The notes below the pieces were generated by a model. It made no database searches. It had not been told where the DNA came from and worked only from the letters and a program-made list of their open reading frames with translations. Below, piece by piece: positions 18,497-44,880 of a stretch of 64,000 nt of DNA. Positions within the stretch are counted from its first letter, which is position 1. Each line of letters opens with the position of its first letter. This DNA is from Acidobacteriota bacterium (GTDB taxonomy: Bacteria > Acidobacteriota > UBA6911): assembly GCA_012729555.1 (NCBI GenBank), contig JAAYCX010000012.1, positions 150,519-214,518 on the forward strand, in the 5' to 3' direction. A program made the position numbers and the translations under genes.

Positions 18497-20239
18497 ATGG
18501 AAACGAGACACAAGCAGATCGTCCGCATCGTCCTGGCTGCCGCCGTCGTCGCCGCCTCGCTGATCGCGTGGCTCCTCTCCACGCCCGCGCCCGGCATGAG
18601 CGTAAGCGGGACGCCGCTCGAGTTCGACGCCGCGCGCGCCCTCGGGGCCGCGCATGCGTTCGTGACGCGGAACCCGGACCGGCTCTTCGGCAGCCTCGAG
18701 TCCCGGCAGTCAAGCGGCGACCTCATCGACTCTCTCTCCTCGCTCGGCTACGAGGTCGAGTTCCTCCACTTCGACGCGAGGGTCCGAAGCCGCAACCGGG
18801 TGGGGCGCAACGTGCTGGCGCTCAAAAAAGGGGAGTCGGACGAGATCGTCGCCATCGTCGCCCATTACGACACCGCCGACACCGCCGTCGAGGGGGGGAT
18901 GAAAAACGGCGCCGCCGTCGGGGTGCTCCTGGAACTCGCCCGCGTGTTTTCGAAAGCCCCGACCCGCCGGAGCCTCCTTTTCGCCTTTACCGACGGGGGG
19001 GAATGGGGGAACGCCGGCGCCGCGGACCTGGCAGCCGGGTATCCGCTGAAGGACCGCATCGCCGCAGTCCTGTCGCTCGACCACGTGGCGGCGGGGGAGC
19101 TGGCCGCTTTCCGCCTCGAGGAGACCGGCCAGGTCTCGGGCTTCACCCCCCCGTGGCTGCGCCGCCTGGCGGCGCAGGCCGCCTCCGTGGAGGGTCTGGA
19201 CGCCAGGGGAGCCTCGCGGCTCGGGGAAACCGTCGACCGGGCGCTGCAGATTTCCAGCGCCGACCAGGGGCCGTTTTTGCGGGAGGGGATCCCGGCCGTC
19301 AACCTTGGGAGCGTATCGGCCGACCGCGCCCGGGCGCGGGAACTCTTCCACTCCCCCGGGGACGGGATCGCCAACATCCGGCCCGCGAGCGTGCGCCGCT
19401 TCGGCATGGCGGCCGAACGGATCGTGCGCTCCCTGGACGAGGCGCCGGAGATCCCCCGGGAAGCGCCCGACGCCCTTCGCAGCGCGGGAGGGAGGTTTTT
19501 GGCCATCCCCTGGGTCCGGGTCATCCAGCTGCTGTGGTTTCTGCCGCTCGGTCCCTTCCTCTGGTGGCAGCTGGCGGGCGCGCGGCCGAAGCTCGACGCC
19601 GCCCAGGTCTCGAGAGAGCTCTGGGCCGTCGCGGCCACCTTCCTCCCCTTCCTCGTCCTTTTCCTGGGCGTGCGCCTGACGGGGGCGCTCCGCCTCCTGC
19701 CGGTGTACCCTCTCTACCCGGCGACGGCGCGCGACCCCGTCCTGGTCCACCCCGACTGGCGCGTTCTCGGGGCCGTTTTCGGGGCCGCCGCACTCGTCGC
19801 CCTCGCCTCCTGGGTGGTGTGCCGGTACGCGCTGAAGGAGTGGCCCGCGCCGCGGTATGCCGCCTCGAAAGCGGTGCTGCTCGTGCTCCTCGTCATCGTC
19901 ACCGCCCTGGCTTTTGCGCGCAACTCCCACTGGGCATGGATTTTTTTACTGCTCCCCGCCTGGTTGTGGACCCTGATCGGGCGGGCGCCTTCGATGAAGG
20001 GGAGGGCCCTGGCGATCGCGGGAATCCTGGCCGGCGCGCTCCCCTCCCTGCTGGTGCTCGGCCGCCACGCGTCCGACCTGTACCTGGGGTGGAACTACGC
20101 CTGGTACCACACGCTCGCCCTGCACAACGGCCTCTTCACCCCGGCCGGATACTTCCTGGGAGCGCTCGCGGCGACCCTGGGGATACGGTTTATCGTCATA
20201 GGGGGACAGTCACCGGTGTCCACGGAGGGACACCGGTGA
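18497..20239 (+). CDS. Membrane-bound M28 family metallopeptidase
   Basis: 580 residues. One N-terminal membrane segment (IVRIVLAAAVVAASLIAWLL) leads to an M28 aminopeptidase-like domain: IVAIVAHYDTAD (His and Asp ligands), LLFAFTDGGEWGNAGA (catalytic and bridging region, with a G-G-E-W variant of the usual D-x-E-E), VLSLDHVAAG and ELFHSPGDGI (last His). About six more membrane segments follow. The usual E-E pair reads G-E, so activity should be tested. AAAGGAGG precedes the ATG at 18497. The last residues (GGQSPVSTEGHR) and the stop come from the palindrome at 20202-20247. Confidence 0.82.
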   Translation: METRHKQIVRIVLAAAVVAASLIAWLLSTPAPGMSVSGTPLEFDAARALGAAHAFVTRNPDRLFGSLESRQSSGDLIDSLSSLGYEVEFLHFDARVRSRNRVGRNVLALKKGESDEIVAIVAHYDTADTAVEGGMKNGAAVGVLLELARVFSKAPTRRSLLFAFTDGGEWGNAGAADLAAGYPLKDRIAAVLSLDHVAAGELAAFRLEETGQVSGFTPPWLRRLAAQAASVEGLDARGASRLGETVDRALQISSADQGPFLREGIPAVNLGSVSADRARARELFHSPGDGIANIRPASVRRFGMAAERIVRSLDEAPEIPREAPDALRSAGGRFLAIPWVRVIQLLWFLPLGPFLWWQLAGARPKLDAAQVSRELWAVAATFLPFLVLFLGVRLTGALRLLPVYPLYPATARDPVLVHPDWRVLGAVFGAAALVALASWVVCRYALKEWPAPRYAASKAVLLVLLVIVTALAFARNSHWAWIFLLLPAWLWTLIGRAPSMKGRALAIAGILAGALPSLLVLGRHASDLYLGWNYAWYHTLALHNGLFTPAGYFLGALAATLGIRFIVIGGQSPVSTEGHR

Positions 20240-20247
20240 CTGTCCCC
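20202..20247. repeat. GGGGACAGTCACCGGTGTCC palindrome, copy C
   Basis: A 20-base arm (20202-20221) pairs perfectly with 20228-20247 around a 6-base loop. The element is inside the end of the M28 peptidase frame and supplies its stop (TGA at 20237-20239). The CTA just past its right arm is read on the other strand as the TAG stop of the ZIP transporter. It is the longest and most perfect member of the family in the window. Confidence 0.9.
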
Positions 20248-21098
20248 TAGCCCAAGGCGACGTCGAGCGTCATCATGACGGCAAAGCCGAGCATGGCGCC
20301 CAGGGTGGCGATATCGGTGTTCTTCTCGGCCTGGGATTCGGGGATCAGCTCCTCGATGACGACGAACATCATGGCCCCGGCGGCAAACGACAGGGCGTAG
20401 GGGAGGATCGGGCGCATCACCAGCACCGCGGCGGCGCCCGCCACGCCGGCGATCGGTTCCACGATCCCCGACAGCTGCCCGTACAGGAAGCATTTGCCCC
20501 GGGAGAGTCCCTCGCGCCGGAGGGGGACGGCCACGGCCATCCCCTCGGGGAAATTCTGGATGCCGATGCCGAGCGCCAGCACCACCGCGGCGGCGATCGT
20601 GGCCGAGGAGAGGCCATAAGCCGCGGCCCCGAAGGCCACCCCCACCGCCAGGCCCTCGGGAATGTTGTGCAGGGTAATGGCCAGCACCAGCAGGACGCTC
20701 CTGCGCCACGAGGTGGGGATCCCCTCCGCCTCGTCCAGATCCATGCCCGGGTGCAGGTGCGGCAGCACCCGGTCGACCAGGCGCAGGAAGACGCCGCCGA
20801 GGAGGAACCCCACCACCGCGGGGACCCAGGAGAGCGACCCGTTGGTTTCCTCCGCCATTTCGATGGCCGGAGCCAGCAGGGACCAGAAGCTGGCCGCTAT
20901 CATCACTCCGGCGGCGAACCCCAGCATGGAGTCGAGTACCTTGCGGTTGATGGTCTTGAAAAAGAAGACCACCGAGGCGCCGAGCGCGGTCACGGCCCAT
21001 GTGAACAGCGTCGCCCACAGGGCCTGAAGCACGGGATGCAGATCCTTGAACCAGTCGATGATACAACCCTCCTGGTAGAATGGGGGGGGAACAGTCAC
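20247..21098 (-). CDS. ZIP family metal transporter
   Basis: Up to 283 residues and about eight membrane segments. The metal-binding [14 protein letters not shown] in segment 4 and [12 protein letters not shown] in segment 5 define the ZIP family, which imports Zn2+ or Fe2+. A His/Asp-rich loop ([17 protein letters not shown]) precedes segment 4. The start is doubtful. GTG at 21098 lies within the upstream palindrome. A perfect AGGAGG (21073-21068) instead points at two ATC codons (21062, 21059) just before [11 protein letters not shown], where relatives normally begin with Met. There is no ATG there. Its stop is provided by repeat copy C. Confidence 0.85.
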
Positions 21099-21132
21099 CG
21101 GTGTCGCTCCGTGGACACCGGTGACTGTTCCC
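21087..21132. repeat. GGGAACAGTCACCGGTGTC palindrome, copy D
   Basis: Arms of 19 bases (21087-21105 and 21114-21132) pair perfectly around GCTCCGTG. It differs from copy C by a compensated change (GGGA to GGAA, TCCC to TTCC), so pairing is conserved while sequence drifts. It lies between YtxH (stop at its right edge) and the ZIP gene start on the minus strand, and the TAG stop of YtxH uses its flanking CTA. Confidence 0.9.
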
Positions 21133-21649: not shown

Positions 21650-22183
21650 ATGCCAATGGAAGCGAAAAAGCGGTGCCCCGAATGCGGATACGGCTCGGAT
21701 GAGGCCTTTACGCAATGTCCCGCCTGCGCCGCGGATGCGAAACGGGGGCCGGGTTCCCCGAAAAACAAAATCACCCTCATCGTGGTGGTCCTCCTCGCCG
21801 TCTGGGGGGCGTGGACCTGGATCGGTCGCGACCCCGGCGCCGGAAAATCGGGGCGCGGGGAGCTCCGGATCAGCACGGGGGAGAGGGTCGACCTCGCCGG
21901 CCACCTGGCCGCGGGGCGCCACACGGTCTTTCTCTTCTATGCCGACTGGTGACCCTCCTGCCGCAAAATACTGCCTCAGTTGGAGGCGGCCGACGCGCAA
22001 TCCGATTTTTTTGAACTGCGGGAGATCGACATCACCGACTGGGACTCTTCCGTGGCCGGCCAGTACAACATCCGCAGCATCCCCCACTGCATGATTTACG
22101 GCCGTGACGGCGAGCTGAAGGAATCGGGCCCCGATGTCTGCTGGGCCGTCGTGGAGAACCCGTCGGCCCTGCTGCGGTACTGA
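21650..22183 (+). CDS. Thioredoxin-like selenoprotein with zinc-ribbon and membrane anchor (Sec101)
   Basis: 177 residues if TGA at 21950-21952 is read as selenocysteine. An N-terminal zinc ribbon (CPECG and CPAC, residues 9-26) and one membrane segment (about 41-58) precede a thioredoxin-fold domain. The active site reads FYADW-U-PSC-RKILPQLE, so Sec101 replaces the first Cys of the CxxC pair. The frame stays open to TAC-TGA at 22183, with the expected IRSIPHCMIYG (cis-Pro) further on. A stem-loop follows the TGA at the right distance, and selB is in the same window. GAGGGTGGAT precedes the ATG at 21650. It is probably a thiol-disulfide oxidoreductase facing the periplasm or acting at the membrane. 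A broken gene is unlikely because both halves are intact. Confidence 0.88.
21971..21989 (+). promoter_or_regulatory. Bacterial SECIS candidate of the thioredoxin-like gene
   Basis: CTGCCTC (21971-21977) pairs with GAGGCGG (21983-21989, one T-G pair) around the loop AGTTG. The loop starts 25 bases after the TGA and has G in its second position, as bacterial SECIS elements usually do. Confidence 0.65.
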
Positions 22184-22278
22184 CCGCATGACGGATTCCC
22201 GTTTTAAGGAGTATCCATCATGCCGGGAAACCGGTATCATTACCCCGGATGTCAAAACTTTGGTCTGGAGGAGACAGA

Positions 22279-22605
22279 GTGTTACAAGTTACCGAAAAAG
22301 CGAGTGAGATGATCAAGCTTTATCTCAAGGACAGGACGGACGCTCCGTCCATCCGCCTCATGCTGAACGAGGGGGGTTGATCGGGGCCCTCCGTGGGCAT
22401 GACTCTGGATGAGTCAACGGAAAACGACACGTCTTTTGAAGAGAACGGAATCACCTTCGTCGTCGACAAGGAATTTCTGGAAAAGATCCAGCCCGTGACG
22501 ATCGATTTCGTGTCCACCCCCATGGGAGAGGGATTTCAGATCTCCTCCAGCCTGCCGAAACCCGAAGGCGCCTGCGGCTCCTGCGCCGGGTCCTGCAACT
22601 CCTGA
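22279..22605 (+). CDS. HesB/IscA-like selenoprotein (Sec34)
   Basis: 108 residues if TGA at 22378-22380 is read as selenocysteine. The frame reads IRLMLNEGG-U-SGPSVGMTLDE, where HesB/IscA-like proteins have GGCSG; the C-terminus carries CGSCAGSC. IscA-like proteins bind iron or pass on Fe-S clusters through these Cys residues. Sec-containing HesB-like proteins are a known bacterial family. The start is GTG at 22279, with GGAGGAG just upstream. The downstream half is otherwise a full domain with no start signal of its own. It is likely in one transcript with the thioredoxin-like selenoprotein 95 bases upstream, ending at a strong terminator. Confidence 0.9.
22400..22416 (+). promoter_or_regulatory. 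Bacterial SECIS candidate of the HesB-like gene
   Basis: TGACTC (22400-22405) pairs with GAGTCA (22411-22416) around TGGAT. The loop starts 25 bases after the TGA with G in second position, the same geometry as in the neighbouring gene. A smaller GCCC/GGGC stem lies between it and the TGA. Confidence 0.65.
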
Positions 22606-22629
22606 CACGATCTGAAACCACGACACGCC

Positions 22630-22665
22630 GGCCGGCGCCCGTTACCGGGCGCCGGCCTTTTTTTT
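22630..22665 (+). terminator. Strong rho-independent terminator of the selenoprotein operon
   Basis: A perfect 12-base stem (GGCCGGCGCCCG with its complement) closes a TTAC loop and is followed by eight T. It lies 25 bases after the HesB-like stop. It would isolate the selenoprotein pair from the toxin-antitoxin pair. Confidence 0.92.
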
Positions 22666-22698
22666 CATGGCAGGGTCCCCGCCCTGCCGGGCGTTTCT

Positions 22699-22729
22699 GC
22701 ACAGTATTTGTGCTATACTATAACTGTGC
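22699..22729 (+). promoter_or_regulatory. Promoter/operator of the antitoxin-toxin pair
   Basis: GCACAGT (22699-22705) and ACTGTGC (22723-22729) form an inverted repeat around TATACT (22714-22719), a good -10 box. A further TGTGC at 22709-22713 pairs with the first arm. Toxin-antitoxin pairs commonly repress themselves through such sites; the regulator would be the antitoxin encoded 13 bases downstream. Confidence 0.55.
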
Positions 22730-22741
22730 ATGGAGGGGGCC

Positions 22742-22972
22742 ATGGGAAGGAATCTGACGTTGCGCCTGGATGAAGGCGTGCTCCGGCAGGCGAAGCACGC
22801 GGCCGTGGAACAGGACCAGTCGCTGTCCGAGTGGGTCTCGGGATTGATCGCCCACGCGCTTGCCCGAAGAAAACGATCGCAATCGGCCAAAGAAAGCGCC
22901 CTGCAGCATATGGACCGGGCCCCTGCCCTCGGCGGCTTCCCCTTGTCGAGAGAGGAATCCCATGAGCGATAA
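22742..22972 (+). CDS. Antitoxin of a VapBC-like pair (CopG/RHH-like)
   Basis: 76 residues. MGRNLTLRLDEGVLRQAKHAAVEQDQSLSEW resembles ribbon-helix-helix antitoxins: a short strand LTLRLDE, then two helices. The C-terminal half (LQHMDRAPALGGFPL) is likely the disordered toxin-binding tail. GGAGG lies just upstream of the ATG at 22742, which is preferred over the ATG at 22730. It overlaps the PIN toxin gene by 11 bases. It probably represses its own promoter, which carries inverted repeats. Confidence 0.78.
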   Translation: MGRNLTLRLDEGVLRQAKHAAVEQDQSLSEWVSGLIAHALARRKRSQSAKESALQHMDRAPALGGFPLSREESHER

Positions 22973-23378
22973 GAGCGTCTTCGTGGATACCAACATCCTC
23001 GTATACGCTCATGACCGGGACGCGGGGGACAAGTACCTGGCGGCGAAATCCGCCCTGGCATCGCTGTGGGACCGTCCCCTGCCGCCGAGCATAAGCATCC
23101 AGGTTCTGCAGGAGTTTTATGTCAACCTCCTCCGGAAGAGGGTCGAGGGGGGCACCGCCCGGGAGATTGTCCTCAATTATCTTGAATGGGACGTCGTTGA
23201 AAACGACCGTGCCCTTCTGCTGGAAGGGATGAGGCTGCGGGACACACTCCACCTGTCCTTCTGGGACGCCCTGATAGTGGCCGCCGCCAGGACGGCGGGA
23301 GCAAAGGAACTCTGGAGCGAGGATTTTAACCCCGGTCAGGATCTGGAGGGAATCGTGGTGGTCAATCCCCTGAAATGA
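22962..23378 (+). CDS. PIN-domain ribonuclease toxin (VapC-like)
   Basis: 138 residues of PIN fold. Acidic metal ligands are visible: D9 in VFVDTNILVYAHD, E in SIQVLQEFYVN, and D in LSFWDALIVAAA followed by LWSEDFN. VapC toxins are Mg2+-dependent RNases that cut tRNA or rRNA and are held inactive by the cognate antitoxin, encoded immediately upstream and overlapping. The target RNA cannot be predicted. Its end overlaps the convergent radical-SAM gene by 17 bases. Confidence 0.88.
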   Translation: MSDKSVFVDTNILVYAHDRDAGDKYLAAKSALASLWDRPLPPSISIQVLQEFYVNLLRKRVEGGTAREIVLNYLEWDVVENDRALLLEGMRLRDTLHLSFWDALIVAAARTAGAKELWSEDFNPGQDLEGIVVVNPLK

Positions 23379-24456
23379 CCCGGTCCGGAGGACCCTGGTC
23401 CGGCCAGGCGGGTCCGGGCAGGGGCGGAAGCTGTCGCGTCATGAGGGCCCGGATGGCCCGGTTGAACCCGTCCGGTTCCGATGCCTCCAGGCGGCGGACC
23501 TCCGATGCCGCCTCCTCCATGATGCGGGCGTCCTCCGCCACATCCAGGGGCACCAGCCCGGGATAGGAGCGCTGGATCAGCGCAAACGCCTTCTGCCGCT
23601 CCGGGTCGAGGGCCAGGAACCGGTCGATCTCGTCGAGCATGGCCCCCTTGTCCCGGTCCAGCCGGCCGTCCACCTGCATGAGGAGGTTGAGGCTGAAATC
23701 TCCGCAGCGGAAATGGGCCGGCATTTCGTCGAGATGCTCCAGGAGCAGCCTGATCTCGGCCACGATTTCCGCATCCGTCATCGGCTCGAAAGCGCCCTCC
23801 CGCGTCATCCGCTCGAGCGGCGACAGGGGGTGGATGGCCAGGGTACGCACGCGGACGTAATCGGGGCGGATCCGGTTGAGGATTTTCGCGGTCTCCAGGG
23901 CGTGGTCCCGGCTCAGGCGGCGCCCCCCCACTCCCGGCATGATGTACTCGGAAAGCGATATCCCGGAGGAGACCACGTGCAGCCCCCCGGCGAGGATATC
24001 GTCGGGGGTGTTCCCCTTTCGGATCAGTTCGAGCACCTCGGCGGAGCCGCTTTCCATCCCCGAATGGATCCGGGTGAGGCCCGCCTCCCTCAGCCGGCCG
24101 AGGTCCCCGATGCTCTTCCCTTTCATGGTCCTGGCCCGCGCGTAGGTGGTCACGCGCCGGACCGACGGGAAGCGCATGCGGATATGGCCGATGATGTCGA
24201 GCAGCTCGCCGGTGGGCACGACCAGGCTGTCGGCGTCCTGCAGGAAGGCCGATTCGGGGGCGCGGCCGCGGGAGGCATAAAGCTCGGCCATCCGGTCGAC
24301 GTCCTGCTTGACCTCCTCCACCGGGCGCTTGGAGAATTTGAGCCCCTTGAAGGGGGGGCAGATGTGGCAGCGGTTCCAGGGGCAGTTGCGGGTGACACGC
24401 ACCAGCAGGCTGCCGGCCTCGTTGGGGGGGCGGATGGCGCCTTGTTCGAACATCAT
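23362..24456 (-). CDS. Radical SAM protein with CX4CX2C-type motif
   Basis: 364 residues. The cluster motif TRNCPWNRCHICPPFKG has four residues between the first two Cys, one more than in the usual CX3CX2C. The remaining radical-SAM features are present: LQDADSLV, TYARARTMKG, LTRIHSGMESGSAEVLELIRKG and SEYIMPGVGG. It is an uncharacterised group related to the B12-independent HemN-like branch. The 4Fe-4S cluster cleaves S-adenosylmethionine to start radical chemistry; the substrate is unknown. It lies upstream of the SirB1-like gene's 3' side but on the same strand, with a 47-base gap. Confidence 0.82.
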   Translation of the reverse strand: MMFEQGAIRPPNEAGSLLVRVTRNCPWNRCHICPPFKGLKFSKRPVEEVKQDVDRMAELYASRGRAPESAFLQDADSLVVPTGELLDIIGHIRMRFPSVRRVTTYARARTMKGKSIGDLGRLREAGLTRIHSGMESGSAEVLELIRKGNTPDDILAGGLHVVSSGISLSEYIMPGVGGRRLSRDHALETAKILNRIRPDYVRVRTLAIHPLSPLERMTREGAFEPMTDAEIVAEIRLLLEHLDEMPAHFRCGDFSLNLLMQVDGRLDRDKGAMLDEIDRFLALDPERQKAFALIQRSYPGLVPLDVAEDARIMEEAASEVRRLEASEPDGFNRAIRALMTRQLPPLPGPAWPDQGPPDRVISGD

Positions 24457-24503
24457 TGCGGACTCCTGTCTCCTTATGGCCGGTCTCCCGTCTCCCGGCG
24501 TTC

Positions 24504-25367
24504 TCAGTTCTCGGCGCAGACGACGCCGCGCAGCACCCGGATGTTGTCCCGGACGTGGCGGCTGTCCTCGGGGGCCGCGGTCCGGGTGAGGTAGGCCTCG
24601 AGCGACGCGAGGGCCCGGGCGAAAAGGCCCGTCTGCATGTAGAGGAGGCCGCGGTCCCTGATTTCCGACGGGACCCCCGGGTTCAGCATCAGGATCTTGT
24701 CCACGGCCGAGAGGGCCTTCAGGTGCTCTTCCTTCTGGGTGTAGATCGCCTTCAGGTTGTAGAGCATCCGGGTGAGGATCGCCCTGTTTCCCATCGGCTC
24801 GAGCAGCGCCGCGTCCACCGTCAGCTCCCCGCCGTGGATCCGGTCGAGCAGTTCCTGGCAGTCGTTGAAGGTGAGGATGCGGCCGCGGTGGAAGGGGTCG
24901 ATCAGGATGTCCCGGTCCGCCGCCGTGTGCTTGACGAGGAAATGTCCCGGGAGCCCGACCCCGCCGATCGGGAACCCGATGCGGCGGGCGACCTCGATGT
25001 AGATGATCGACAGGGAAATCGGGATCCCGAGGCGGCGGTCGAGAACCTCGTTCAGGAAGCTGTTCCGGGGATCGTAATAATCCTCCCCGTTGCCGCCGAG
25101 CCCCTCCTGGACAAACAGGACTTCGTTGAGGCCGTCGATGACGGCGGCGGGTTCCCGGCTGTCCCCGATGAGGACCTCCGCACGGGCGGCCAGGATATCC
25201 AGGCGCCTCAGGTACCCGTCCGTGTCCAGCCCGGGGTACTCCTCGGCCGCGATGGCGAGGGCCGCCCGGTCCAGGGGGAGGGCGCCGTCATCCAGGGCCG
25301 CCATCGCCCCAAAGGCCTGCTGTGCTTTCAGAATGTGGATGATCACCGGGGCCTCGAAAAACTCCAT
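24504..25367 (-). CDS. SirB1-like protein: transglutaminase-like domain plus TPR
   Basis: 287 residues. The middle region ([39 protein letters not shown], then [11 protein letters not shown] and LIDPFHRG) matches the SirB1/transglutaminase-like family. The C-terminal part ([44 protein letters not shown]) is a pair of TPR motifs. Members are widespread, often near translation or heme genes, without a settled function. A catalytic Cys is not clear: the position before the helix reads as a Ser/Asn region, so it may be non-enzymatic. Confidence 0.82.
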
Positions 25368-25430
25368 CCGGACCCGGGGAGGATGCCCCCCCGGCCGGAC
25401 GGTCGCTGCGGGAGGATTCCAGCCCGCCCT

Positions 25431-26294
25431 TCAGCGGGGGAACACGAGCGGGGAGCGCAACCGGAATTCCAGAATGGTCTCCGCCGGTATCTTCAGGGTC
25501 TCCCCCCTGGTAACCACCTGCACCCCGGTGCCGACCGCGGCGCCCGAAGCCGCACCGATGGCCGCTCCCTTCCCCCCCCCCGCGATGGCGCCTATGATGG
25601 CGCCGAGCGCCGCGGTTCCTCCCACGGTCGCCGCCGTGCGGTTGCCGCGGGAAGCGCCGACTTCGGTGTAATCGGAGGTATCCAGGAGGTGCGACCGGCC
25701 GTCGACGACGAGTTCGATCAGTTCCAGGACGAGTTCGGACCGCCCGGCCAGCTTGCCCGATTCCCGGGCGAAGGCGATGCGGCCCTTCACCAGCGAGCCG
25801 CGGGGCGCCACCGTCCGGTCCCCGGAAACCAGCGGGTCCTCCAGGGTGGCCTCGAAAACATCCCCGACGCGGTTACGGTCGGTGTCGATGGCCGAGGTGG
25901 TCCGGACGGTCACCGCGGTCCCCTCGGCGAATACCGTCCCGTCCGCCGTCGCGGCCCCGGGGGAAATCGAGGGTTCCGCCGGGCGCCCGGCGGCCGTCGA
26001 AGGCGTTTCCCCGGTTTCGACCGGCGGGAGTTCCCCGGTCGCCCGCGCCGCAGCGGGGGCCTCCGCCGGGATGGGCGCAGGCTCCGGTTCACTGAACGTA
26101 ATCCGGTCGACATCGGCGACCGGGAAGACCTCGAGCCGCCCGAGGACGCGGAATTCCACCGTACGCGCATCCCCGCGCATGAATTTTCCGGAATAGGCGG
26201 TACCGTCCCTGAGCACGATCTGGTCGGCCCGGGCGACTCCCCCCAGGAGCATGACCGCCGCGAGATATGGGATAATTATGGATTTCAGCCTCAT
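25431..26294 (-). CDS. Exported glycine-zipper protein
   Basis: 287 residues. A signal peptide (ending VARA near 22) is followed by [18 protein letters not shown], a short beta domain often seen in acidobacterial envelope proteins, then a Pro/Ala/Glu-rich linker (70-110), a second domain ([23 protein letters not shown]) and a Gly/Ala zipper ([21 protein letters not shown]) that may enter a membrane. GGAGGGGG precedes the ATG at 26294. No enzyme signature is seen; a structural envelope role is likely but unproven. Confidence 0.7.
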
Positions 26295-26406
26295 ATGGAT
26301 CCCCCTCCCTGTAGAAAACCGCGGGCTCACCGCCCATACATCCATGATGAGCCACCCGGCGGCCCGGATGCAACCTGTTCCCCGAAAAAACGCGAACCGC
26401 GGGGGG

Positions 26407-26901
26407 CTAGCCGCGCGGCCTGTTTGGTGGATTCGGCTGCTCTTCCCCCTGGAAACCGTAGCGCAGTACCCTGACCTTGACCATCCTGCGGCCGAACTCG
26501 AGGCACTGTTCGTAGCTGGGGATGTAGATATCGATGATTTTGCCCTTGATCAGCGCCCCGGTATCCAGGACCTGGTAGATGCCGCCCATCAGGGGGGAAT
26601 CGACGTAAATCATGGAACCCAATGGGATAACCCTGGGATCGGCCGCCACGTGCCCGGGGGCCACGTGGATCCCGCTCTTGGTGATCCCGGTGACGCAGTA
26701 GGCGGTGGCCTGGAAGGGCTCCATGTCCCGGGAAACCGGCGGGAAATCCGTAAGGCTTTGAGGATTATAAACTTGAGCGTCCACCGTTGGGGAACATTCC
26801 CGGCGGGTGACGTGAAGCAGGCATGCGAATCCCGCGATGATGACGATGATGCGGAGGCGGCTCATCCGCCGCCAGCTTACGAAACGTTTTTCCTTCAACA
26901 T
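26407..26901 (-). CDS. 3D-domain envelope protein (lytic transglycosylase-like barrel)
   Basis: 164 residues. After an N-terminal membrane segment (LRIIVIIAGFACLLHV) comes a 3D double-psi barrel: FQATAYCVTGITKSGIHVAPGHVAADPRVIPLG, then YQVLDTGALIKGKIIDIYIPS, with the D-T-G and the I-D-I-Y Asp expected at the active site of MltA/Rpf-like enzymes. It probably binds or cuts peptidoglycan in the periplasm. An ATG a few codons in (MSRLRI) is an alternative start. Confidence 0.8.
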   Translation of the reverse strand: MLKEKRFVSWRRMSRLRIIVIIAGFACLLHVTRRECSPTVDAQVYNPQSLTDFPPVSRDMEPFQATAYCVTGITKSGIHVAPGHVAADPRVIPLGSMIYVDSPLMGGIYQVLDTGALIKGKIIDIYIPSYEQCLEFGRRMVKVRVLRYGFQGEEQPNPPNRPRG

Positions 26902-27107
26902 AGTGGTCCTCTCATGCAGGAAGGGGACTATCCCTTTCCGGCGATGGTGTCATGGATCAGCAGCAGGGACTAATGGGGAGGGAAAGAGAGACGTTTGCGC
27001 AAGTTGCACAACGGAAAATGATAGGTTTCACAAAACTGTCGCCAAACATGGAAAAAAGGCTACCAGAGGGGGGCGCCGCAAGGCAAATGTTATTTTTCGG
27101 GCTGAAC
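26902..27107. other. Gene-free stretch with one hairpin
   Basis: No convincing gene. GGAAGGGGA (26919-26927) and TCCCTTTCC (26931-26939) form a 3-base-loop hairpin with one G-T pair just upstream of the 3D-domain gene. The rest is AT-richer than the window average (for example TTATTTTTCGGGC near 27089) and may hold the promoter of the minus-strand 3D gene. Confidence 0.4.
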
Positions 27108-27144
27108 CCGGCGGCAGGCGGTGCAACAAGGCGCCTGCCGCCGG
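27108..27144 (-). terminator. Long GC hairpin downstream of the UGSC operon
   Basis: Thirteen paired bases (CCGGCGGCAGGCG with CGCCTGCCGCCGG) around an 11-base loop, 20 bases past the stop of the minus-strand gene ending at 27164. No T tract follows on that strand, so termination may be inefficient or the hairpin may only protect the 3' end. Confidence 0.5.
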
Positions 27145-27163
27145 CAAAGACATCGGGGCGGCC

Positions 27164-27733
27164 TCAGTAGAGCTTGAAGAACAGCGTCCTGCCGCGCCCG
27201 GTGGCGCCCCCCGTATCCGGATCGAACACCATGACGGGCTTCGGGTCCTTCTCCGCCACCGCGAAGGCGACCCAACCTTCGATCGACCCGCCCGGCTTCA
27301 CCACCCCGGCCAGGGGCGGCGCGGGCACCTTGACCGGCACCCGCTCGTACTCGGTCAGATCCTCCGAGAGCGCGACCCATTCGAGCGGCGACTCCCCTAG
27401 GCTGAAGGTGAGGGTGTCGCTGACGGCCCTCCCCTTCAGCTCGAACCTGACCCGCGCCAGGATATATTCCATCCCCGCCCGGGGTGCCGGGTTGTCCCGA
27501 TCGGCCGCCCGGAGGCGCTCGAGCGCCGCCGGGCCGCGCACGGTTTCGATCACGGTGACGGCGATGTCGTAGATGTTCGAATAGACCGATCCGAGTTCGA
27601 CCATGGACCGCACCCGGGAACCGACGGCAGCCGGTTTCGTCGAGGAATTCTCCTGCGCCGCCGCCGGTTTCAGACCGCCTGCGGCCGCCAGCGCCAGGAT
27701 CCCTGCCACAAACACTGCGAATCTGCTTTTCAT
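27164..27733 (-). CDS. Exported protein of unknown function, linked to the UGSC selenoprotein
   Basis: 189 residues. A signal peptide (KSRFAVFVAGILALAAAGGLKPAAA) is followed by a beta-rich domain (SMVELGSVYSNIYDIAVTVIE, GMEYILARVRFELKG, GGSIEGWVAFAVAEKDPKPVMVFD) that resembles DUF4352/immunoglobulin-like exported domains, including the G-W-V-A-F core. No catalytic residues are evident. It begins 13 bases after the UGSC selenoprotein stop on the same strand and has GGAAGAGGAG before its ATG, so the two are one operon and may work together in the periplasm. Confidence 0.72.
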   Translation of the reverse strand: MKSRFAVFVAGILALAAAGGLKPAAAQENSSTKPAAVGSRVRSMVELGSVYSNIYDIAVTVIETVRGPAALERLRAADRDNPAPRAGMEYILARVRFELKGRAVSDTLTFSLGESPLEWVALSEDLTEYERVPVKVPAPPLAGVVKPGGSIEGWVAFAVAEKDPKPVMVFDPDTGGATGRGRTLFFKLY

Positions 27734-27746
27734 AGGTCTCCTCTTC

Positions 27747-29528
27747 CTATCTCCAGTCATCCACGCTGGCGCTCCCCACATAGCCGAAATCCCCGCCGGA
27801 CCAGAAGGTGTTCGTGCCCCCTCCCGTGACGACGATTTCAATGGATGTGGAGGTCTCGTTGCTGTCCTTGGACGCCATGAATGCCGGGTTGCGCCCGGCG
27901 GCGGCGCCGCGGGTGTAGCGGGAAACGGGAACCACCGCCCCCTCGCCCTGCCGGAGCCAGCCGGCGTAGGGCTGCACCCCCTTTTTCGCCTGCTCCAGCG
28001 CCTTCTCGTTCTGGGACCAGTAGAGCCACCCCGGCGTTCCGGTGTTTTCGGCAAGGTATTTAGCGAACGATTCCTTGGTGGGGTGGCCGCTGGCCGCCAC
28101 GTCCGCCGCGACGATCGGGTCGAGGACGAGGGTGGCCTGGGTCGTGCCGAAGGAGAAGAAATGCTCGAGCCACCCCCGGATGACCTCGTGAATCGGCAGC
28201 GGCGAGTACCACGCGATGTCGCTCATGCTCCAGCCGCTGAAGACGCTGACGACGCTGTCCGATTTCTTGAATCCCTTCTGCACGTGAAGCGGCTTCCAGC
28301 CCGCCGGCAACCCCGCCTCGTTTTCGGGGAAACAGAGGTTGTTGTAGTTCAGGGGATTCCCCTGACTCCCGAGGTAGGTTTCCCCCGGTTTGCCCGAGCC
28401 GCCGAGATTCCTGGAAATCAGGGTCCAGCACCGGCCGATGGCGCTGTTGGCCCGGGATACCGGTCCCATGGCCCCGATCCCCGTGTTCATCCCGATTTCG
28501 TCCACGACCGGCCCGTTGACCACGACCATCCGGGCGAAAGACGAAGTGGAACTGAACATCGAGGTGACCCCCTTGCCCGCCAGGGCCAGGATGGTAGGGA
28601 AATATTCCGGCTTTGCGCCCGCCATCACGGCGTTCACGGCCACCATCTCGACGGTGTAATACCAGGCTTCGTGCGGGGGGGAGGGGCGCATCTGTCCCAC
28701 CCACTCGTCCGGCTGGCGGCTCGTGGCCTTCAGCATCTCGGCGACCCTTTCCTCGGTCGGCAGGATGACGGGATTGCCGTCGGTGAACCCCTGCTCGTGG
28801 AAATACTCCATGAGCCTGTCGGGGGTGTCGGGCGGCAGGAGCCGCGTCCGCTCCTCCCGCGGGAGAAAACCGGCCTTGCCGTCCTCGGCCGACAGGGGGC
28901 GGCTCAGCCCGGCGTATATCTGCCCGAGCATCGGCTGACCCGAGTTGGGATCGTTCCCGGCGATATACTGGCGGCACAGTTCCGCCGGACGGTCGGTGAT
29001 GGGATGGGGGGTATAGGTGATCCGCATGTTGGGGATCCCCTTCTTGTAGGAGATCGTGGTCACGAGCTCCTTGAAACGCGCCGTGATGATGGGGACCGCG
29101 GGAACGCCCATTCTTTCCAGGGTCACTGCGTGGCCGACGACCGCCGGCGAGCAGCTGCTTCAATGCCCCACCAGGACGATGGCCCCAGCGGCCTTCGCCT
29201 TGATCTCCTTCCAGAGGTTCGGGTCGTCGTCCATGTAACCGCCGAACTTGTCCTTCAGCACCCAGGTCGTCGCCGGATACTTCGCCTTGAGGGCCGCATG
29301 GAGCTCCTCGACAAACGGCTTCGTATTCGGATACTTGGTGTCCACGATGTAGACCGTCTTGCCGTCGAGCGAAGCGGGACGCGCCGCCATCGGAATCTTG
29401 CGAATTTCGGGCTTGATCCCCTGGGGGTTCATCACCACTATCCGGTCCGGGTCCGCCGTCCATCCGATCGACGCGGCCGCAGCCGCCACGAGGGCGAGGC
29501 CCATTATTTTGACCGCCATGTTTTTCAT
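27747..29528 (-). CDS. Exported UGSC-family selenoprotein with C-terminal domain of unknown function (Sec123)
   Basis: 593 residues if TGA at 29162-29160 is read as selenocysteine. A signal peptide (MAVKIMGLALVAAAAASIGWTA) precedes a UGSC-like domain with the typical VYIVDTKYPNTKPFVEELHAAL and ATTWVLKD segments. The motif reads IVLVGH-U-SSC-SPAVVGHAVTLERMGVPAVPIITARF, that is U-S-S-C. After about residue 185 a second domain of some 400 residues (TDGNPVILPTEERVAEML, NAVMAGAKPEYFPTILALA, GPVVDEIGMNTGIGAMGP) matches a widespread uncharacterised family. GGGAGG precedes the ATG at 29528. Without Sec the gene would split into a 122-residue stub and a headless domain. Confidence 0.85.
29133..29148 (-). 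promoter_or_regulatory. Bacterial SECIS candidate of the UGSC gene
   Basis: On the minus strand GCCGGC (29148-29143) pairs with GTCGGC (29138-29133, one G-T pair) around the tetraloop GGTC. The loop begins 17 bases after the TGA with G first. Confidence 0.6.
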
Positions 29529-42981: not shown

Positions 42982-44880
42982 ATGAAGCACGTAATCGCGG
43001 GGACGGCGGGGCACATCGACCACGGCAAGAGCGCGCTGGTCCGCGCGTTGACGGGGGTCGACCCTGACCGCCTGAAGGAGGAGCAGCAGCGGGGCATCAC
43101 GATCGACCTGGGGTTCGCCCACCTCGACCTGGGGGACGTCCAGGTCGGGTTCGTGGACGTGCCGGGGCACGAGAAATTCGTCAAGAACATGCTCGCCGGG
43201 GTGGGGGGCATCGATTTCGTGCTCCTGGTCATCGCCGCCGACGAATCGATCATGCCGCAGACGCGGGAGCATTTCGACATCTGCCGCCTCCTCGGGGTGA
43301 GCGCCGGGATCGTCGTCATCAACAAGGTCGACCTCGTGGACCCGGAGATGCTGGAACTGGTCGTCGACGAGGTGACCGAAGCGATGGCCGGGTCCTTTCT
43401 GGAAAAAGCCGAAATCATCCCCGTCAGTTCCAGGACCGGCGAGGGGATCGAACAGCTGAAGCGCTCGATCCACGACCTGGCGCTGGCCGCCCCCCCGCGG
43501 CCCGGAAACAGGCTGCTCCGGCTTCCGATCGACCGTGCCTTCAGCATCCACGGTTTCGGCACCGTGGTGACCGGCACGCTGACCTCGGGCGAGATCCAGA
43601 AGGACCAGGAGATCGAATTCGTACCGGGCGGACTGACGGCCAAGGTGCGCGGGCTGCAGGTGCACGGCCGGATGACCCCGCGGGCGGTGGCCGGCCAGCG
43701 CACGGCGGTCAATCTCCAGGGGATCGACCTCGCCCAGGTGGAACGCGGAATGGTCGTGACGGTCCCCCGCCTCTTCCGCCCCACGCAGATCCTGGATGTC
43801 CGGTTGTCGCTCCTGCCCGACGCCAAGCCGCTGCGGAACCTGGTCAAGGTCCGCTTTCACCAGGGGACGCTGGAAGTGCTCGCGCGCGTCGCCCTCCTCG
43901 GGCAGGACACCCTCGCCCCGGGGGAGACCGCCTACGCCCAGCTGAGACTGGACGCCCCCGCCTTCTGCCTCCACGACGACGCCTTCATCATCCGGCGCTT
44001 CAGCCCCACGATCACCATCGGCGGCGGCCGCGTCCTCCACCCGAACCCGTCCAAGCACAAGAGCACCGACGGGCGCACCCTCGCCGCGCTCAAGGAGCTG
44101 GACCGGGGGGGACTCGAAGCCAAGATCCCGGTGCTCATCGCCACCGACGCCAAGCGGGCGGTGACGGTGGGGGGGCTGAATTCGCTCCTGGGGCTGCCGG
44201 GGGCCGAAATCACCCGGATCTGCGCGGAACTGGCGAAAGCGGGGCGCATCGTCATGATCCCGGCGCCTTCCCCCATCCTGACCCTCCCCTCGGTGGTGGC
44301 CGACCTGCAGGAGGAGACCCTGGCGCGCGTCGCCGCGTTCCACAAGGACAACGAGCTGCAGCGGGGGATATCGAAGGAGGAGCTGCGCAAGCGTTTCTAC
44401 GACGACGTCCCCCTCGAGGTGTTCCGCCACTGTCTCGACCGGATGGTGGAAGCGCGGCAGATCGTTTTTCTCGGGGAGGCGGTCTCCCTCTACGGCAGGG
44501 AAATCCAGCTGTCGGAGGAGGAGGAGACACTCCGGGAGATGATCGAAGCCGCGGTCCTCGAGGCCGCCTACCAGCCCCCCGCCATGGCCGAACTCCAGGC
44601 ATCCATTCGGGCGGACGCCGAGGCGGTCCGCCGGATCTTCTTCTGGATGCTGAAGGAAAAGATCCTGGTGAAGCTGTCCGACGACCTCATCTATCACCGC
44701 GAAACGCTCGAGGAAATGAAGGGGCGGATCCGGGCGGCGTACGCCCCGGGGGCCCGGTTCGGGGTAGCCGACTTCAAGGACCTTTTCGGAATCACGCGCA
44801 AACACGCCATCCCCCTGCTCGAACACTTCGACCGGGAGAAATTCACGCGCCGCCTGGGCAACGACCGGGTCCTGGTGTAG
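42982..44880 (+). CDS. selB: Selenocysteine-specific elongation factor SelB
   Basis: 632 residues. The GTPase part has [18 protein letters not shown], the switch region [29 protein letters not shown] and [10 protein letters not shown]. Beta-barrel domains follow ([19 protein letters not shown]), then four winged-helix repeats at the C-terminus (about 375-632, ending [27 protein letters not shown]) that bind the SECIS stem-loop. It delivers Sec-tRNA to in-frame UGA codons, explaining the three TGA-containing genes here. ATG at 42982 with GGAG 5 bases upstream. SelA, SelD and tRNA-Sec are not in the window. Confidence 0.97.

Follow-up and report, generated by a model that had tools for sequence, protein, structure and literature searches.

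Predicted selenocysteine codons with bSECIS hairpins in an Acidobacteriota genome, and a candidate long-spacer element in its expanded UGSC-long family

The bacterial selenocysteine insertion sequence (bSECIS) is described, in the portion of PMC13188914 available to us, as a hairpin with a loop of 3–9 nt that carries G[G/U] in its first positions and lies 16–37 nt from the UGA. The same portion and the available part of PMC12013277 state that the SECIS elements of some bacterial selenoproteins do not fit this model, so that atypical elements are known to exist. The available part of PMC12013277 also gives 46 selenoproteins as the largest selenogenome and three for one Acidobacteriota genome. 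For the UGSC selenoproteins, a fusion of the UGSC domain with a domain named Unknown_1 was already reported in the 2008 GOS paper (PMC2398784, in the part consulted), and no activity is assigned to UGSC proteins in the literature covered. Here, three in-frame TGA codons were analysed in a 64,000-nt stretch of the genome of an uncultured Acidobacteriota bacterium (GCA_012729555.1, contig JAAYCX010000012.1, positions 150,519 to 214,518), hereafter the window. The three TGAs very probably encode selenocysteine (Sec), each by means of a canonical bSECIS hairpin just downstream.

SelB with Sec-tRNA-Sec(UCA) would bind the small G-containing loop and deliver Sec to the UGA. The predicted products are a thioredoxin-like UxxC redox protein (gene 1), an IscA/HesB-like Fe-S protein in which Sec would replace a conserved Cys (gene 2), and an exported protein with a USSC motif as its likely active site (gene 3). 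The last belongs to a family here termed UGSC-long, of which the genome has at least 18 Sec paralogs, gene 3 included; one subfamily, D, appears to use a rearranged SECIS.

Predicted Sec codons, hairpins and decoding machinery

Gene 1 (21650..22183, forward strand) encodes a thioredoxin-like protein with the active site W-Sec-P-S-C, in which the Sec-UGA lies at 21950..21952. Its predicted bSECIS (21971..21989) starts 18 nt after the TGA and comprises a stem of 7 bp including one G-U (CTGCCTC/GAGGCGG, 21971–21977 / 21983–21989) and the loop AGTTG (21978–21982), 25 nt from the TGA. Gene 2 (22279..22605, forward strand, GTG start) encodes an IscA/HesB-type protein with the motif GG-Sec-SGP and its Sec-UGA at 22378..22380, followed after 19 nt by a predicted bSECIS (22400..22416) with a 6-bp stem (TGACTC/GAGTCA, 22400–22405 / 22411–22416) and the loop TGGAT (22406–22410), again 25 nt from the TGA. 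Gene 3 (27747..29528, reverse strand) has a signal-like N-terminus and the motif GH-Sec-SSC; its Sec-UGA (29160..29162, read 29162–29160) precedes a predicted bSECIS (29133..29148) that starts 11 nt after the TGA, with a stem of 6 bp including one G-U (GCCGGC/GTCGGC, 29148–29143 / 29138–29133) and the loop GGTC (29142–29139) at a spacing of 17 nt.

On recomputation, these hairpins were present exactly as the first-pass annotation had described them, with the same stems and loops and with stem starts 11–19 nt after the TGA. Its claim of a shared geometry was borne out for the 25-nt spacing of genes 1 and 2, a coincidence of little weight when taken alone, but failed for gene 3, in which the spacing is 17 nt. 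All three loops also fit the narrower pattern G[G/U], which had not been part of that description, and the stems of 7, 6 and 6 bp at spacings of 25, 25 and 17 nt fall within the published limits (upper stem 4–16 bp, spacing 16–37 nt). Compared with the canonical bSECIS in the available portion of PMC13188914, the three elements are alike in lying in frame directly past the UGA, in their 6–7-bp stems and 4–5-nt loops, in the G at loop position 1 or 2 followed by G/U, and in the spacing of 17–25 nt, and no difference from that description was found. As SECIS elements, they are ordinary and of a known kind.

The genome (3.83 Mb, 98 contigs, 98.9% complete) contains the whole Sec-decoding set of SelA, SelB, tRNA-Sec and SelD. 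The selB gene lies in the window (42982..44880, forward strand) and encodes the Sec-specific elongation factor with its C-terminal winged-helix domains (TIGR00475, 380.4 bits against a cut-off of 242.25; PF09106 and PF09107), and SelA (563.7 bits), tRNA-Sec (72.4 bits, anticodon tca, i.e., UCA) and SelD (368.7 bits, with one in-frame TGA of its own) were likewise over their cut-offs. A SelB match over the cut-off was found in 67 of the 80 Acidobacteriota genomes searched. The several TGA-interrupted frames that stay open would also be expected if TGA were reassigned throughout the genome (e.g., to Trp) or read through unspecifically, so that no SECIS would be needed. This is barely credible, given that 27 of the 48 coding-like genes of the null set end in TGA (one of these being a Sec-TGA itself), that the read-through TGAs stand at redox positions and align with Cys rather than Trp, and that tRNA-Sec and SelB are present.

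The chance level of the hairpins depended strongly on how they were defined. With a loose geometry (stem ≥6 bp, loop 3–9 nt, a G within the first two loop nucleotides, spacing 16–37 nt), a hairpin followed 21% of the in-frame codons (3483 of 16404). The counts were 50 of 204 for Cys codons, 258 of 1267 for TGAs taken in any frame, and 8 of 27 for the TGAs that end genes of the set (7 of 26 without the UGSC Sec-TGA, which is itself among the 27). The minimum free energy (MFE) over 40 nt was −12.5, −15.7 and −17.0 kcal/mol for genes 1, 2 and 3, all below a threshold of −7.5 kcal/mol; 85.5% of 1500 random codons (42 nt) also reached this threshold, which is therefore uninformative. Over 42 nt, the fraction of 1000 synonymous shuffles with an MFE at least as low was 0.384, 0.224 and 0.076, respectively. 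Hairpin energy was dropped as a test because it does not discriminate in GC-rich sequence. All three window hairpins have a tight form (loop 3–5 nt, G[G/U], stem ≥6 bp, at most one G-U) that followed 2.5% of codons (403 of 16404) and 5 of the 204 Cys codons. Three out of three is unlikely to be chance, although this form was chosen after the hairpins had been seen. An Rfam scan of the 64-kb window (E ≤ 10) returned no match to a SECIS family and just four chance-level matches.

The first-pass annotation had presented the hairpins as support for true Sec decoding over random stops and had proposed shuffled sequences as a control. Mononucleotide shuffling of these sequences gave the loose geometry in 455 of 3000 cases, so the hairpins alone are only moderate evidence; they are real and jointly above chance, but individually weak, and had been overrated as stand-alone support. 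Its conclusion of Sec decoding is nevertheless correct, mainly on other grounds. The common occurrence of loose hairpins and the unremarkable MFEs would suit a reading in which the TGAs are plain stop codons, products of frameshifts or sequencing mistakes, or scars of pseudogenes, and the hairpins arose by chance in GC-rich DNA. This account is highly improbable in view of the TGA shared, codon for codon, by 130 of the 137 distinct UGSC-long rows, four HesB orthologs and three thioredoxin-like orthologs, the frame and codon bias that run on past the TGA in genes 1 and 3, the full Sec machinery, and covariation. Sec decoding is thus very probable because of the machinery, the placing of the proteins in or near known selenoprotein families with Sec at a redox position, TGA or Cys at homologous codons, and covariation in the gene 2 and gene 3 families.

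With the TGA read through, gene 1 resembles thioredoxin and thioredoxin-like UxxC selenoproteins in its match to PF00085 (42.4 bits, gathering score 23.5) and in having Sec at the first Cys of CxxC, but differs from them in scoring below TIGR01068 (39.6 versus 96.8 bits) and in extra N-terminal Cys-rich and hydrophobic segments. All three close orthologs (own genome, G004 and G006) have the TGA and an identical hairpin. Gene 1 has the least independent support of the three.

Gene 2 scored 117 bits against the IscA/HesB selenoprotein model NF038090 (IscA_HesB_Se; curated cut-off 85), with Sec at the GG-U-SGP position, and also matches PF01521; against the HesB-like TIGR01911 it fell below the cut-off (35.8 versus 66.35 bits). 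Its orthologs have TGA in the own genome (G000), G004, G007 and G009, and one ortholog within the genus (G006) has TGC (Cys). The stem is TGACTC/GAGTCA in G000 and G004 and TGGCTC/GAGCTA in G007, with a compensatory A-U to G-C change in G007 and G009 that alters the amino acids on both sides. The four Sec forms had hairpin energies of −7.9, −7.9, −7.9 and −7.2 kcal/mol versus −2.0 kcal/mol for the Cys ortholog, a pattern expected of a SECIS that is kept with Sec and would decay without it.

It is also conceivable that Sec decoding is real but that at least one of the three genes uses another nearby fold as its functional SECIS: the MFE fold of 0–40 nt of gene 1 differs from the hairpin described above (the 0–50 nt fold contains it), and subfamily D shows that the position and form of a SECIS can change. 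This is unlikely, as the three hairpins match the published model with G[G/U] loops and those of the gene 2 and gene 3 families coincide with sites of compensatory change or synonymous conservation.

SECIS conservation in the gene 3 family

Gene 3 matches PF24696 with 104.5 bits (gathering score 25). Like the described UGSC selenoproteins (PF24696, NF041046 and PMC2398784 in the part consulted), it has Sec in UxxC and a fusion to a C-terminal domain, which is probably Unknown_1 of PMC2398784. Gene 3 differs from these proteins in its USSC motif, its score below the NF041046 cut-off and its signal peptide, and its family in the 10–28 paralogs per genome and in that no Cys forms were found in the genus. 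G017 and G045 carry the UGSC and C-terminal parts as two adjoining genes. A simple hydrophobicity rule detected a signal-like N-terminus in 116 of 148 UGSC-long rows, suggesting that most of these proteins are probably exported. Named relatives of gene 3 come from Acidobacteria metagenome-assembled genomes (MAGs), mostly 'Zod' or 'AS06', and from one MAG labelled Deltaproteobacteria.

The best G-loop hairpin of 37 representatives (70% identity) was compared with synonymous-codon shuffles. Hairpins reached p ≤ 0.05 in 13 of the 37 versus 19 of 505 control windows of the same genes (Mann-Whitney, 1.6e-8), and for GU-loop hairpins the corresponding counts were 18 of 37 versus 10 of 505. Hairpin register varied by clade, with the loop at about 16, 17 or 21 nt, and covariation was therefore counted, as changes on both sides of a pair, in ungapped alignments of the three registers. 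Two-sided changes were found in 2 of 6 pairs (3 cells) in group A (32 sequences, including gene 3), in 4 of 6 pairs (14 cells) in group B (25 sequences), the strongest of the three, whose level was reached by none of 500 shuffles, and in 2 of 8 pairs (5 cells) in group C (17 sequences). Moreover, synonymous identity was 0.72–0.94 over codons +4..+10 versus 0.49–0.72 at +11..+60, and higher in all ten clades tested. The synonymous null of this identity analysis, which also covered subfamily D, treats related sequences as independent, and its shuffle figures therefore overstate significance.

Several points weigh against Sec decoding through these hairpins. All of the evidence is drawn from the sequences of draft assemblies, and the hairpin statistics at any single site are weak. 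The gene 1 hairpin, being invariant in its three orthologs, gains no covariation support of its own. In the gene 3 family, several representatives are not individually significant, including the gene 3 clade (p = 0.163), the five subfamily D members among the 37 have a score of zero at the usual position, and representatives at 70% identity are not independent of one another. Finally, gene 3 falls below the curated UGSC_fam NF041046 equivalog cut-off (73.3 versus 125 bits), and it is not classed under that equivalog.

UGSC-long expansion in the genus

A protein search of 80 relatives, which scored at most 16 candidates per genome and thus gives copy numbers as lower bounds, revealed multiple UGSC-long copies in every one of the ten genus genomes, which represent ten species, and few outside the genus. 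When 40 genomes were searched with PF24696, with all candidates scored, the ten genus genomes had 19, 16, 11, 12, 14, 11, 10, 28, 27 and 17 matches, and the other 30 Acidobacteriota genomes had one each in three and none in 27. In the own genome, 18 copies (16 + 2) among the 19 PF24696 matches were verified at codon level as TGA forms. Together with the thioredoxin-like protein, HesB and SelD, at least 21 selenoprotein genes were found in 3.8 Mb, 18 of them from one family, which is rich for a bacterium. The literature search, as far as it reached, found no report of a multi-copy UGSC expansion. Selenium use centred to this extent on a single exported family would represent a new pattern. As a separate observation, SelD lies inside a 643-aa open frame (L238, G000:C9:39575-40507) that exceeds SelD alone, a possible SelD fusion selenoprotein.

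The Sec region was covered by 139 of the 148 domain matches, to which the codon comparison was confined, two of these rows (L070/L071) being duplicates of others (L058/L059). TGA stood at the homologous codon in 132 of the 139 rows (130 of 137 distinct), and the rest had Leu, Ser, Gly or Thr codons; a Cys codon at the Sec site was found in none of these 139 rows. A further 28 rows, taken from 19 loci added later and picked to include copies without TGA, partly repeat first-set genes; they had 13 TGA, 13 other codons, two gaps and no Cys. All copies inspected in the genus carried TGA or a non-Cys codon at the site. Outside the genus, Cys forms occurred in Neorhizobium galegae (GHCSTC), Halalkalicoccus (GDCGSC) and Variovorax (GACGSC), and a Sporomusa homolog had lost the pair.

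Some of these copies deserve mention in their own right. In the paralogs without TGA (G005:C67 and C19; G007:C330 and C100; G008:C58), Sec and usually the following Cys are lost and Ser, Thr, Gly or Asn stand instead, often in clustered genes that may be non-redox paralogs. Two UGSC-like genes from two species (L220, G009:C14; L234, G007:C289) have two consecutive in-frame UGAs (TGATGA, giving GG-U-U-G-C) followed by a perfect 7-bp hairpin with the loop GTT, a possible tandem-Sec protein. The Neorhizobium galegae homolog (L221) is a full-length Cys form of gene 3, about 41% identical, that lies on a plasmid beside malonyl-CoA genes and is split into two open reading frames (ORFs) in record CP090555.

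As to function, the reading we favour, though with low confidence, is that UGSC-long proteins may be periplasmic reductive enzymes acting on small organic substrates, with Sec as nucleophile and diversification by substrate. Cys homologs of UGSC sit near transporter, amidase and CoA-transferase genes. The 20 neighbour proteins in 12 own-genome UGSC-long stretches included two AFOR, two SDR, an MFS protein, a multihaem cytochrome, an outer-membrane barrel, IclR and others, with no single recurring partner among them. The UGSC Sec region resembles that of the amino-acid reductase selenoproteins GrdF, GrdB and PrdB below cut-off (GrdF best, E = 0.0012, short of the curated cut-offs of 602–800 bits), and hhalign of the UGSC domain against the GRDB-like set gave P = 2.8e-4 with a probability of 41%. 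UGSC-long differs from these reductases in its sub-threshold scores, its export and in that no GrdB-type partner proteins were identified. Membership in GrdB/GrdF is not claimed, and at an hhalign probability of 41% the relation is kept as a lead. PF07355 matches in 23 of 80 Acidobacteriota genomes were partial and mostly without CxxC in the ORFs inspected. A PDB profile search gave no match below E = 0.2, and none of 216 pattern matches in viral contigs was a relative. Gene 3 was also modelled with AlphaFold from 13 sequences, but the model (mean pLDDT 51.6, pTM 0.42) was too poor and was not used for fold searches.

A candidate long-spacer SECIS in subfamily D

Subfamily D comprises 18 sequences from nine of the ten genus genomes, with a conserved TGA and the motif GDUGSCTKFL or GDUGSCTKYL. 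Only one of the 18 had a stem of at least 5 bp with a G loop at the standard spacing of 16–37 nt, versus all 18 at 55–66 nt. Synonymous identity was 0.742 over codons +1..+25, 0.433 over +26..+78 and 0.483 in the 80 codons before the TGA. Within the conserved block, the fold consists of two helices, helix 2 (+10..+51) and helix 3 (+56..+73), and has a CGUGUU loop that starts 62 nt after the TGA; with helix 2 (42 nt) collapsed, this loop would be 20 nt from the UGA. In the helices, 97.7% of cells were paired versus ≤50% when partners were slid by 1–3 columns, a structure that was derived from the same sequences used to test it.

Two-sided changes were seen in three of the 17 pairs in these helices; in L230, one of these consists of a pair of synonymous third-position substitutions (ACA to ACG with TTT to TTC). 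Codon +23 always ends in A (TTA 13, CTA 2, ATA 2, TCA 1) despite the varied amino acid, which fits a U-A closing pair of helix 3. The element has a covarying stem that carries a small loop, with a G near the loop start and G/U after it, and differs from the canonical bSECIS, as given in the available portion of PMC13188914, in the 62-nt distance of the loop from the UGA and in the 42-nt helix between. A covariance model of the element found it in 9 of 60 genomes, all in the genus (nine of its ten). No defined long-spacer bSECIS architecture of this sort was found in the literature, as far as the search reached.

The D element is a candidate for a new long-spacer SECIS type, its function being presumed from sequence. 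Helix 3 may be the SelB-binding part; helix 2 might instead be used in some unusual way, or the structure might serve a different purpose. On balance, we lean, with considerable reserve, towards the view that a single exported selenoprotein family has multiplied in the genus to 10–28 paralogs per genome, which keep Sec or lose it without reverting to Cys, and that within this family a new SECIS class has arisen whose GU loop, 62 nt from the UGA, would be restored to 20 nt by a conserved helix. If the D element is functional, SelB could act from a loop beyond 16–37 nt when a helix takes up the slack, and D-type genes would be missed by the standard search model, into which that limit is built. 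The gene 3 family and its subfamily with the rearranged SECIS are the part worth following.

One D-type gene of the own genome (L203, G000:C4:11668-18906) lies between a gene for an outer-membrane beta-barrel of the TonB-receptor type and an IclR regulator and also adjoins an AFOR gene, an arrangement that resembles a catabolic cluster. Elsewhere in the window, a scan for further internal TGAs, incomplete in that the HesB TGA failed its filter, gave 13 candidates, all of which except genes 1 and 3 looked on inspection like true gene ends or antisense frames. In addition, two near-identical 46-nt palindromes (20202–20247 and 21087–21132) with arms of 19–20 nt, resembling repetitive extragenic palindromic (REP) elements, flank a predicted ORF at 20247–21098 on the reverse strand.

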